From Acidobacteriota bacterium (lineage in GTDB: Bacteria; Acidobacteriota; Terriglobia; Bryobacterales; Bryobacteraceae), in contig QHXW01000099.1 of the NCBI GenBank assembly GCA_003223115.1, positions 1 through 64,000 of the forward strand: DNA of 64,000 nucleotides, in the 5' to 3' direction. Made by a program: the position numbers and the translations under genes. Below the pieces are notes generated by a model, which saw only the letters and a list, made by a program, of their open reading frames with translations, did not search any database and had not been told where the DNA came from. Below are positions 8,276 through 15,445 of the stretch, piece after piece. The number at the start of each line of letters is the position of its first letter. Position 1 is the stretch's first letter.

Positions 8276-9125
8276 TCACACCCTTACAGATCGGCGGTAA
8301 ATGGAAATTTCTAATTTGCGGGCTTCGGCGGCGGAAGTGCTCCCGTTCAGCGGCGGATTGCAATAAACAATCACCGCTTTCGGCGCGATCCGCCGCTTTG
8401 GCTCCCGGCTCGCCGTGAAACTGACGCCAGAAATTTCCGCTCCCATGGTCGTGCCACCGCACTCTTCTGCTCGTTCACCTTGAGCTTGGTCGTGATGAAT
8501 CGCGTAATGCTCCCCATCACTCGCTCCCCTGCCCGTCGGCTACGGACGTAAATATTGCTATCGTCCGCATATCGCGCGAACCGGAGACCTCTCCGCTCCA
8601 ACTCCCGGTCGAACTCGTCGAGCACGATATTACTGAGCAAGGGCGACAACGGACCGCCTTGCGGCGTCCCCTCATCGACCGGACTCACCAACCCGCCTTC
8701 CATCACCCCAGCTCTCAGAAACGCCCGGATCAGCTTCAGCATCCGCTGATCACCGACTCTGGCTTTCATTCTGGCCATCAGTTTGTCGTGCGAAACCCGG
8801 TCGAAAAATTTCTCGAGATCCAAGTCCACACACCAGCGATAACCTTCGGCGATATATTGCTGCGCCTTTGTCACCGCCTCATGAGCCGAGCGCCCAGGCC
8901 GAAACCCGTAGCTGTGATCGGAAAACGTCCGGTCCCATCTGCTTTGCAAACTCGCTCGGCACCGTATGCCTCAGATCCGGTTCTTGTCCATCGGCTCGTA
9001 CGTTTGCTCCACGCTTCTTTCAGACCCTCCGTCGCCGGAACGCCCTTGCGCTTCGCTATGACTTCACCTCCATCAGGTTGTCAAGGGGACTTTCACCCCC
9101 GCGCTGTCGAACATGCTCGGCACAC
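8276..9125 (-). mobile_element. ltrA: Group II intron remnant with truncated reverse transcriptase
   Basis: The minus strand at about 8370-8970 encodes the middle of a group II intron RT: TFSDHSYGFRPGRSAHEAV, DLDLEKFFDRVSHDKLM, GTPQGGPLSPLLSNIVLDE and the catalytic FARYADD. The N-terminal third is missing. A frameshift near 8420 moves on to FTASREPKRRIAPKAV, after which the maturase is lost and the frame ends at 8276. Upstream, 8960-9120 still carries intron RNA-like sequence with a GGGGTGAAAGTCCCCTT stem. A deletion has joined the 5' RNA domain to the middle of the RT gene, so the copy is dead. Confidence 0.8.
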
Positions 9126-11396: not shown

Positions 11397-11694
11397 GATG
11401 TAACTGTAAGCTATTCATATAAAAGCTCTTATATTTATACTTGAAAGTGCTTAGTTTGTGCCTCAACTTAAAAGCGCCGAGTTGTCAATCACTTGAGAAC
11501 CCGATCGGTGTGCTGCAGCGAGCACCACGATGCCAATCACCACTCCGATCACGGGCGCAGACAATCTGGCGGCGAGAAATGCGTGCCGCGCAGCAGTGCT
11601 GAGAGTTCCCAGGCGCCCGACCATGCTCAAAAGTTGCGGGAATTTTTTCGGCTCAATACAATGACCGAGACAAAAGTCGCGGAGGTATTTCTTC
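11397..11694. other. groSL promoter region and leader of the AhpD-like gene
   Basis: The left half is AT-rich (11405-11460) and divergent from the AhpD-like gene, so it probably holds the groSL promoter. The right half has no convincing gene. A GGAGG at 11680-11684 serves the plus-strand gene starting at 11695. Confidence 0.4.
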
Positions 11695-12231
11695 ATGGCA
11701 GCAGTCAACCCCCTAACGAAAGACAAAGCGGCGCCCGAGGTACACGAGATCTTTGACAATCTCACGAAGTCGATGGGCTTCATGCCGAACTTCTTCGCGG
11801 CGATGGCGCACCGGCCGGCCGTGCTCAAACTTTTACTTCCGCTCTACGGCGCAATCGTCAACCAGGGCACCGTGGAACCGCGCTACAAAGAACTGGCTTA
11901 CTTGAAAACCGCACACATCAACGGGTGCGAGTATTGAACGCGAGCGCACACCGCTTCGGCGAAGCGGATTGGACTCACTGAAGAACAGATTGCCGCCATT
12001 GATTTTTACCGGCGCAGTCCGTTATTCGATGAGAAGGATAAAGCTACATTGCTCTATGCGGAGCGCGTCACCCGTGGTAGTTCGGCGTTGCGCGATCGTG
12101 CCATTGAAGAGTTGAAGAAATATTTCACAGAGGACCAGATCGTGGAGCTGACGCTGGTGGCCTGTGTGGCCAATTTCACGAACCGTTTCAACGACGCAAT
12201 GCAGCTCGAGCCTGACCTGGGCGTCCGTTAA
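11695..12231 (+). CDS. AhpD-like/carboxymuconolactone-decarboxylase-family protein, candidate selenoprotein (TGA = Sec81)
   Basis: One continuous frame of 178 residues plus stop carries a single in-frame TGA at 11935-11937. Before it the protein reads AHINGCEY, and after it TRAHTASAKRIGLTEEQIAA. The family's active-site motif is ExxCxxCxxxH, and the TGA falls exactly on the second Cys (C78-E79-Y80-U81, H85), giving a CxxU redox pair. The rest (SMGFMPNFFAAMAHRPAVL; VTRGSSALRDRAIEEL; ELTLVACVANFTNRFNDAM) is undamaged and of usual length. A 7-bp hairpin with a GGC loop starts 13 bases after the TGA. GGAGG precedes the ATG. The alternative is a TGC-to-TGA nonsense mutation or a sequencing error. 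Confidence 0.7.
11951..11967 (+). promoter_or_regulatory. SECIS-like hairpin after the in-frame TGA
   Basis: CCGCTTC-GGC-GAAGCGG forms a perfect 7-bp stem with a triloop starting with G. The loop begins 20 bases after the TGA. Bacterial SECIS elements are usually described as a stem-loop just downstream of UGA with the apical loop about 16-37 bases away and a G in the first loop positions, which this meets. The same bases encode a conserved part of the protein, so the hairpin could be coincidental. Confidence 0.5.
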
Positions 12232-12288: not shown

Positions 12289-13074
12289 TTGAATCGAAGA
12301 TCATTTATCGAAGTTTTGGGAGGACTGGGAATGTTGGCAGCCGCACGCCCCGCCGGCGCAGCCGGAGACAAGCGTAACGGATTCTATGTGCTCGAAAGTT
12401 TCAACATGAGGCAAGGCTCGCAGATGGTTCGCATGCACGATCATTTCAATAAGGTCGCACTGCCCGCGCTCAAGCGCGTCGACTACACGGGCCCGATTAT
12501 TTATCTGGAAGCCTTGGTCTCACCGCACATGCCGCAACTGGTGTCGATCCACGGATTCAAGTCACTCGATGATCTGTGGCGTGTGCACTCGCGTATCAAT
12601 GGCGACCCGGAACTGGTGAAGGCCTTCGAGCAGTGGGAAGCCGGCGATGATCCCGCCTTCGATCAACAGAACGCAGTGCTGCTCCAGTCCACAGATTACA
12701 GTCCGGAAGTGGCGGCGTCCGCTGGGCCGCCTAAGGCGCCCCGCATTTTCGAGCTGCGGGTTTACCATTCGCCGACGTGGCATCAGCTCAAGGCCTTGCA
12801 TGAGCGCTTCGCTGGCCCGGAAATCCAGATCTTTCATCGCGTGGGCATCCACCCGATTCTGTACACCTCAACGCTGATTGGGCCGAACATGCCCAACCTG
12901 ACTTATCTGATTCCGTTCGACAGCCTAGCTGAGCGCGAGAAGGCCTGGAACGTGTTCGCAGCCGATGCGGAATGGGTGAAGGTCCGTAAGGAATCCATCG
13001 AGAAACACGGACAGATCAGCAGCATCATTCAGATTGCGTTGTATAAGGCCACGCCTTATTCGCCAGTGCAATAA
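12289..13074 (+). CDS. NIPSNAP-domain exported protein
   Basis: A 261-residue protein with an N-terminal export signal (MNRRSFIEVLGGLGMLAAARPAGA). It carries two ferredoxin-like NIPSNAP repeats, about 30-127 (FYVLESFNMRQGSQ) and about 150-256 (RIFELRVYHSPTWHQLKAL). The start is a TTG with GAGG six bases upstream. NIPSNAP proteins are widespread in acidobacteria, and their biochemical role in bacteria is not settled. The gene follows the candidate selenoprotein by 57 bases on the same strand and may be cotranscribed with it. Confidence 0.85.
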   Translation: MNRRSFIEVLGGLGMLAAARPAGAAGDKRNGFYVLESFNMRQGSQMVRMHDHFNKVALPALKRVDYTGPIIYLEALVSPHMPQLVSIHGFKSLDDLWRVHSRINGDPELVKAFEQWEAGDDPAFDQQNAVLLQSTDYSPEVAASAGPPKAPRIFELRVYHSPTWHQLKALHERFAGPEIQIFHRVGIHPILYTSTLIGPNMPNLTYLIPFDSLAEREKAWNVFAADAEWVKVRKESIEKHGQISSIIQIALYKATPYSPVQ

Positions 13075-13108
13075 CCAGTGGCGCGGGGCGAATGGCCTGG
13101 CACCCGAA

Positions 13109-15445
13109 TCAGAACGTGAATTTGACCGCCAACTGAATATTTCGTGGTCCCCCGCCCCCCAGGAATGGATTGCCGGTTCCGACATCGGGTGTCGCGGTGA
13201 TGGGAATGGAGCCGATGCCGCGGCCGTTCGCGTCCGGCAAACCACCGCCCAGGAAGTCCACTGCGAAACTCGGCAGTAGCGGTTGGTGAAATTCGGATGA
13301 TTGTAGAGATTGAAGAAATCGATCCGGAATTGCATCTTCAGCTTTTCACCGATGGGCGTATTCTTGACCAGCGACAAGTCGAAATTCTTGTAAGTCGGGC
13401 CCGCGAAGGCATTGCGTCCCAGGTTCCCGAAGTGCTGCATGCCGCTCACGCAGCCACCTGCCTCCGGATCCCAGGTGCAGGGCACGGCAAAAGCCGACGC
13501 GTTCAGGAAGGTGGTGGGCAGATGGCGTCCCGCAAACGGATTTCCCACGACATCAGGCCGGCCAAAGTACTCGTCGCTGCCGTTGAAATCGCCTTCAAAT
13601 AAATAATTGATATTCACCGGCTGCCCGGTCTGTATGGCCAAAATTCCATCGAGCGCCCACCGGAAAGCAGCATCTTTGTAGTTTTGCGATTTGGGGAACT
13701 CAGACAGGAAATTCCAGGCGAATCTCTGTCGCGTATCGAAATTCGAGTTGGCGCGCTCGCCGTTCGGGTTGAAGCTGTTATCAGGCTGCGTGGCGTTGGG
13801 AACGAAATCCTGGCCGTCGGATGCCGTGTCGATGGAATGCGACCAAAGTGTAACTGATCATGGACGTCAGCCCGTGAGCATTGGTCCGCAAGCTGAGTTG
13901 CAATCCGTTGTAATTGGAGGTGGCGCTCGATTCGAACTGGTTGATGTACACGAAATCCGGGTAAGACAGCGAACCGCCGCCGATGCTCTGGTTCAGATCG
14001 CGGTAGCGGAAAAGTTTATGGCCGGATGAACCCACATAACCAATCTGCAGCGCCATGCCCGCCCCAAGCCGCTGCTGAACGTTGAAGTTGTAGTTCTGAA
14101 TGTAGGGCGTGCGGATTTTCTGGTCGACGGTGAAGATGTCGCTAGCGGAGAACTTGCTGAAGACCGGAGGAGCGCAGGATTGCATGTTAGGAATCGGAAC
14201 GTCCGCGCCCGTGCACGGGCCGGGTATCACCGCAAGCGCAGCGCTGCCGCTGAACAGTACCGGCGCTGAGCCACCGATGTCGTTATAAGCCGGACCGGGA
14301 TTGAACGTGTTCCACGGCAATTGGCCGGCGAAGAAATCCTGTGAAAATACGTCGTAGAACATACCCCATCCTGCGCGCACCACGGTTTTGCCGCTACCGA
14401 ACAGGTCGTAGGCGAAGCTGGCCCGCGGCGCAAAATTATTCAAGTCGTGGGGATAAAGCTGGTTGACCTGCCTGGGGCCGGGAATCGAAGCGTCGAAAAT
14501 GCTGAAGCGATGTCTCTCCTCGCCGATCACCCCGTAGTAGTCCCAACGCAACCCGGCGTTGAGGGTGAGCCGCCTGGTGAGCTTGAAATTGTTCTGCACA
14601 TAGAACGCGTGATTGTTCTGAAACGTGCCGCGCCGCGAATCCCCTTGCGCCTCGTGATTGGAAGTGGTCAGGCTGCCGCCCGGTTGTCCCGCCAGGAAAC
14701 TCGCCAGATCGGGAAACAGCAGCCGGCCGCGATAGCCGTTGTCGAAAAAGCCGTTCACGAACGTGCGTCGAAATTCATAGCCCCATTTCCAGTTGTTGCG
14801 CCCGGTGTTGTAGGATGCATTCGTCACCCACTGCCAGTTGGTGTCGACGCGGCCGCGCGGAAGCGAAGTATTGGACCCCAGAGTGGACTCGCCGCTCACC
14901 AGAATTTCAGGCAGCCCCGTATCGTTACCTTGGGAGTTCAGACCGACGGAGCGTGGATCAAATTTTCGATCTTCCGAGAAAAACGTCTCGGCGAAGCGGT
15001 TGTATCCGGCCCGAAATTCGAGAAGCAAGCGCGGGGTAATGATGTGTGTCAGCGAAATGGAAACCAATTGAACCCGGGTGGGAGTGATGGTGTTATAGCC
15101 CGGCAAAATTCCACCGCCAACCAGCGCCAGTGGAAAACTCTGATCGCTATCACCGAAAAAATAGCGGCCGGTAAGCACGTCGCCGGCGCCCAGGTGCTGA
15201 TCGATTTTACCGATCAAGCTGTCCACGCGGTTCGAGAAGCGGGTGGTCGCCAGAACATTGTTGCCATTGGCATCAGTCGCGATATTGGGCTGGGGCCAGG
15301 GATGGCGCGCCAGCAGGTTGGCGATCACCGGATTTTCACCGCCGGCGTTGACGACTGTGTCCGAAGCCAAGGCCGCTGAAATCTCGCTGTCCGTCGGGAC
15401 ATGGCCCTGGCTCATCGCGCCTCGCCGAATCGCGGAGTGCACCAC
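13109..15445 (-). pseudogene. Oar-like TonB-dependent outer-membrane barrel, truncated and frameshifted
   Basis: The minus strand from 15445 to about 13840 encodes the barrel of an Oar/TonB-dependent receptor-like protein (VDSLIGKIDQHLGAGDVLTGRYFF; LTLNAGLRWDYYG; NNFAPRASFAYDLFGSGKTVVRAGWGMFYD; IQNYNFNVQQRLGAGMALQIGYVG, read in pieces). A frameshift near 13830 is followed by the barrel end in another frame (TYKNFDLSLVKNTPIGEK, FRIDFFNLYNHPNF), with another shift before the terminal GGGGPRNIQLAVKFTF at 13109. The signal peptide, carboxypeptidase-regulatory domain and plug are absent at the 5' end. It is a remnant of what was probably a polymer or siderophore uptake receptor. Confidence 0.8.

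Follow-up and report, generated by a model that had tools for sequence, protein, structure and literature searches.

The gene at positions 11695-12231 of the window (the whole stretch of 64,000 nucleotides analysed here) raises the question of whether its single in-frame TGA encodes selenocysteine (Sec) in a functional AhpD-like enzyme or marks a broken gene. The frame starts with the ATG at 11695 and runs for 178 codons to a TAA stop at 12229-12231, and the TGA at 11935-11937 (codon 81) is its sole interruption. These coordinates, given by an earlier reading made from the letters alone (hereafter the sequence-only reading), were exact, and no second stop was found. The same reading had placed the TGA on the second Cys of a CxxC motif, and this was verified: the relay positions of AhpD are all present (E66, C78, Y80, U81 and H85; pattern E-x11-C-x-x-C-x3-H), with Sec predicted in place of the second Cys. 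For this gene, the open reading frame list gave an 80-residue frame that ended at the UGA; standard gene calling halts at such a codon, so enzymes of this type are easily overlooked. The features are listed in Table 1.

Table 1. Positions of the selenoprotein gene and its elements in the window
Feature	Positions	Strand	Basis
Selenoprotein gene, AhpD-like/carboxymuconolactone decarboxylase (CMD) family, CxxU form, 178 aa	11695-12231	+	Pfam, TIGRFAM, fold, 18 UGA homologues
Shine-Dalgarno-like GGAGG, 9 nt 5' of the ATG	11681-11685	+	Sequence
Codon E66, proton-relay Glu (AhpD Glu118 position)	11890-11892	+	Lies 12 residues ahead of C78, like its AhpD counterpart; almost no variation in alignment A2
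Codon C78, first Cys of CxxU (AhpD Cys130 position)	11926-11928	+	Invariant in alignment A2
UGA codon 81, predicted to be read as Sec (AhpD Cys133 position)	11935-11937	+	Column is UGA or a Cys codon in every homologue
Codon H85, proton-relay His (AhpD His137 position)	11947-11949	+	In most homologues, four codons past codon 81
Bacterial SECIS-like hairpin; stem 11951-11957/11961-11967 (7 bp), loop GGC 11958-11960	11951-11967	+	Folding, compensatory changes, absent in Cys homologues

The predicted protein scored above the thresholds of the Pfam CMD family PF02627 (1.7e-19; 70.0 bits, gathering score 23) and the AhpD core model TIGR00778 (41.7 bits, cut-off 27.8). The model of peroxidase-related enzymes, TIGR01926, gave 6.5e-21 and 74.9 bits, just below its cut-off of 81.8, for a query with C at position 81. 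The best NCBIfam match was NF053654 (GroundWater_YciW), which covered 1-171 of 179 with 92.3 bits, far from the cut-off of 310. AhpD proper, the partner of AhpC (TIGR00777), reached 16.1 bits against a cut-off of 191.95.

AhpD-like selenoproteins form a described class, as the sequence-only reading had stated, and the exact CxxU form about which it was unsure is also in the literature (PMC1088965, PMC9312934 and PMC13188914). Specifically, a 2005 study of the Sargasso Sea described 27 CxxU sequences of COG2128 (PMC1088965), AhpD-like selenoproteins were listed for sequenced genomes in 2006 (PMC1794560), and the CxxU type appears in reviews of 2022 (PMC9312934) and 2026 (PMC13188914), the latter with TIGR01926. 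Additionally, NCBIfam contains several "(seleno)protein" models built on the CMD/AhpD core. The COG2128 (YciW)/TIGR01926 selenoprotein shares the superfamily, the CxxU motif and a SECIS after the UGA with the window gene, which differs in falling below the TIGR01926 cut-off and in having an Acidobacteriota host, whereas the 2005 report concerned a marine metagenome. The YciW-related (seleno)protein NF053654 matches over the full length, but the window gene lies outside the equivalog, in a sister subfamily. NF041047 (the GSU3128-type "distant AhpD homologue") and NF041238 (AhpD_rel_CFYUT) are likewise CxxU selenoproteins on the CMD/AhpD core, but their scores were very weak (17.5 and 18.3 bits, respectively) and their length differs. 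The window gene is thus a genuine selenoprotein gene, of a sparse Acidobacteriota subfamily belonging to a selenoprotein type known since 2005.

The Cys-type AhpD-like proteins PA0269 (2o4d and 2ijc), D. radiodurans 6k40 and M. tuberculosis AhpD have the same fold and relay positions (E/C/(Y or H)/C/H), but carry Cys where the window protein has Sec at the second position. A Cys paralogue is also encoded in the window's own genome (L040, on contig C262 of G000); it is 44% identical to the window protein, has a Cys codon at position 81 and lacks the hairpin.

Searching 100 related genomes and the GTDB genome collection yielded 44 aligned family members, the window gene included. Codon 81 corresponded to TGA in 17 of these (again including the window gene) and to a Cys codon in 27, so that across the alignment the in-frame UGA faced a homologous Cys; no third residue type was found in this column among the 44 members. 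The alignment proposed in the sequence-only reading therefore returned Cys or Sec and nothing else. Random stops elsewhere in relatives, which that reading had named as evidence against itself, were also looked for, and no scattered stops were found; the stops of L022 (TAA) and L025 (TGA) fall outside the motif, and both genes have Cys at position 81. The TGA members ranged down to about 29-30% identity with the window gene. When the survey was widened to 396 phylum genomes, two further close homologues turned up (73% and 69%), each carrying TGA, which brought the number of other genes with UGA at the equivalent of codon 81 to 18. Among plasmid relatives, every match was below 60% identity. 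The most distant UGA members, L038 (G047:C662) and L042 (G061:C922), carry Asn where the relay His would be, lack the relay Glu and may represent a separate selenoprotein subfamily.

The hairpin that follows the UGA has its loop G 20 nt 3' of this codon, and this G opens the apical loop, as in a bacterial SECIS. A G-led hairpin at a compatible distance had been noted in the sequence-only reading; the stem proved to be real and to covary. As stand-alone evidence, the hairpin was dropped, because a dinucleotide shuffle gave z = -1.5 and comparable folds follow other TGAs of the window (-9 kcal/mol or better downstream in 10 of 71 TGA-split frames). Three further tests made it convincing. With the protein sequence held constant, only 9 of 5000 synonymous recodings folded equally well. 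Across 15 UGA homologues, 91.7% of the stem cells were paired and both-side changes occurred in six of the eight pairs. Compensated cells numbered 22 in these homologues versus 6.6 in shuffles, and none of 500 shuffles reached 22; the signal was lost when the pairing partner was slid by 1-3 columns. Moreover, UGA homologues kept a mean of 6.8 of 8 pairs, versus 3.0 of 8 in Cys homologues (p = 1.7e-6). L038 and L042 each have their own stem, with the register shifted relative to the window hairpin. An Rfam scan of the window found no selenocysteine element above threshold, and its only match was a group II intron at 8852-9041.

Comparison of the window gene with the five closest UGA homologues tested gave a dN of 0.20-0.22 3' of codon 81, with dS above 1 or saturated, and this dN was no higher than that 5' of codon 81. 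The low dN relative to dS beyond the UGA indicates that the downstream part is translated and under selection.

Selenocysteine machinery was found in the window's genome as the sequence-only reading had proposed to check, and all four components are present: selA (2e-119, 400 bits), a full-length selB, followed as far as its C-terminal part (1.9e-110, 371 bits), selD (2.8e-106) and the tRNA-Sec gene selC (anticodon TCA, 69.9 bits; ARAGORN agrees). The assembly consists of 594 contigs with an estimated contamination of 4.8%, and the sel genes are located on contigs other than that of the window; we infer that they come from one cell. Of 101 genomes of the clade, 89 had a selA above the curated cut-off, so selenocysteine use is normal there. 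A second tRNA-Sec candidate (contig C433, 48.9 bits) was rejected, being called tRNA-Ser by ARAGORN. The selD gene (L065, G000:C289:23397-24320, minus strand) is itself a selenoprotein gene, with UGA in the active-site motif GUASK.

Other explanations of the TGA were weighed against this evidence. The fragmented assembly would be compatible with a sequencing or assembly error at 11935-11937, but the equivalent codon is TGA in independent assemblies, namely the QHYU, QHYF, QHYI and JASHPG records and genomes G092, G285 and G208. This recurrence rules out a private mutation and refutes the assembly error, whose probability is negligible. A nonsense mutation or early pseudogene, in which TGC or TGT had become TGA and left a dead gene or an 80-residue fragment, would be in keeping with the broken frames in the neighbourhood, and a single TGA is the mildest lesion possible. 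However, the TGA is common to the 18 homologues, across genera and down to about 30% identity, and the purifying selection downstream, the covarying hairpin and the complete Sec machinery likewise oppose this explanation; it is refuted by the conservation of the UGA across genera and deserves practically no credence. The UGA might also be read through with another amino acid, by near-cognate Trp or Cys suppression or by code reassignment, since conservation of the frame alone is compatible with any readthrough. But the UGA substitutes exactly for the catalytic Cys, selA, selB, selC and selD are present, and the hairpin follows codon 81 in UGA homologues only. Furthermore, UGA serves as the ordinary final stop in several family members (L018, L020, L023 and others), which indicates that the codon is not reassigned family-wide, and such readthrough is very improbable. 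The decisive evidence among the sequences compared is the stem covariation together with the TGA shared by 18 homologues, by which the assignment of codon 81 to Sec is close to shown.

The AlphaFold2 model (from a 25-sequence alignment) predicted a confident AhpD fold with a pLDDT of 93.4. In the fold search, D. radiodurans 6k40 was the best full-length PDB match (TM 0.90), whereas the debrominase Bmp8 (6ohj and 6ohi) had the lowest E-value with a TM of 0.81. The relay residues sit in an all-helical fold, with Sec predicted at the second Cys. Taken together, the locus almost certainly encodes an AhpD-like thiol/selenol oxidoreductase, with an AhpD-like active site, in which UGA 81 is decoded as Sec through SelB and the hairpin. 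SelB-GTP-Sec-tRNA(Sec), bound to the hairpin at 11951-11967, would insert the Sec, and the C78-E-Y-U81 site would operate with E66, Y80 and H85 as in AhpD. Sec81 would most likely attack a hydroperoxide or an oxidised partner, C78 would resolve the intermediate to a selenenylsulfide, and cellular thiols would then reduce it.

The sequence-only reading had called the residue at the TGA the resolving Cys. Its place at the second Cys stands, but the label is doubtful: by its spacing to E66 and H85, position 81 equals Cys133 of M. tuberculosis AhpD. According to PMC6626918 (citing Bryk 2002 and Koshkin 2004), Cys61 of AhpC bonds to this Cys133 and not to Cys130, and Cys133 is exposed where the active-site cleft has its base, whereas Cys130 is partly buried. 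By this analogy, it is probably Sec81 that attacks and C78 that resolves. Two relatives favour the first Cys, so this assignment stays an inference: Cys131 is more important than Cys134 in B. thailandensis AhpD (PMC6626918), and human Sestrin2, a distant relative, is active and keeps only the first Cys position, which is catalytic (PMC4674687).

Chemistry of the peroxidase or AhpC-reductase type is suggested by the family. A Sec protein with a different chemistry, for example dehalogenase- or disulfide-reductase-like, comparable to Bmp8, is the most serious competitor but still unlikely. Bmp8, which led the fold search by E-value, was also a sequence match, and no conserved operon partner was found in the neighbourhoods of L044 and L046 when these were read by eye; on the other side, 6k40 fits the full length better than Bmp8, and the AhpD relay positions are retained. 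No ahpC was seen beside the selenoprotein gene in the window, nor, by eye only, around L044 and L046. Similarly, no conserved operon context was visible by eye; purH lies upstream in L046, and L044 has no shared neighbour.

The distribution of Sec and Cys forms over the tree was clustered, requiring four changes (three of them forced by well-supported branches) versus 13.7 by chance. The window gene grouped with L018 and with genes of Acidobacteria gp2 and Acidiferrales. L019 (G036:C24:9067-9591), a Cys gene whose genome belongs to the window's family, was nested among Sec genes with a support of 100/92, and the fork that separates it from the five closest Sec genes had a support of 100/49. 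The hairpin of L019 is lost (3 of 8 pairs), and its host genome retains selA. The simplest reading is that L019 represents a Sec-to-Cys conversion, which is probable.

A close match at 1e-45 was present in only 3 of the 396 phylum genomes, the window's genome included, and the same-genus genomes G001 and G002 yielded only a Cys paralogue (L028 and L032), indicating that the Sec gene is sparse; both transfer and repeated loss could account for this. We tentatively propose, at somewhat less than even confidence, an undescribed and scattered subfamily of Acidobacteriota AhpD-like selenoproteins with an attacking Sec, a Cys paralogue alongside, partial transfer or frequent loss, and at least one Sec-to-Cys conversion (L019). 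If true, this would let the reasons for which one active site keeps or gives up Sec be studied as a natural experiment. Acidobacteriota of several families join the hosts of CxxU AhpD-like selenoproteins, and the general picture of selenoproteins is unchanged. With both forms, Sec and Cys, present in close relatives and within one genome, the contribution of selenium can be tested directly.

The selenoprotein gene is followed, likewise on the plus strand, by a gene (12289-13071) for a NIPSNAP-domain protein with a Tat-like N-terminus (Pfam NIPSNAP, 6e-16). Directly downstream of it, a TonB-dependent-receptor-like gene (12925-15445, minus strand) is disrupted and now comprises two or more frames (13781-15445 and 12925-13641). 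A truncated group II intron (8371-9041, minus strand) comprises a reverse transcriptase fragment at 8371-8949 beside the Rfam group-II-D1D4-3 match at 8852-9041. The "heavy decay nearby" of the sequence-only reading is borne out by the broken receptor-like frame and the reverse transcriptase fragment, but not by the adjacent groES and groEL, both of which are intact.
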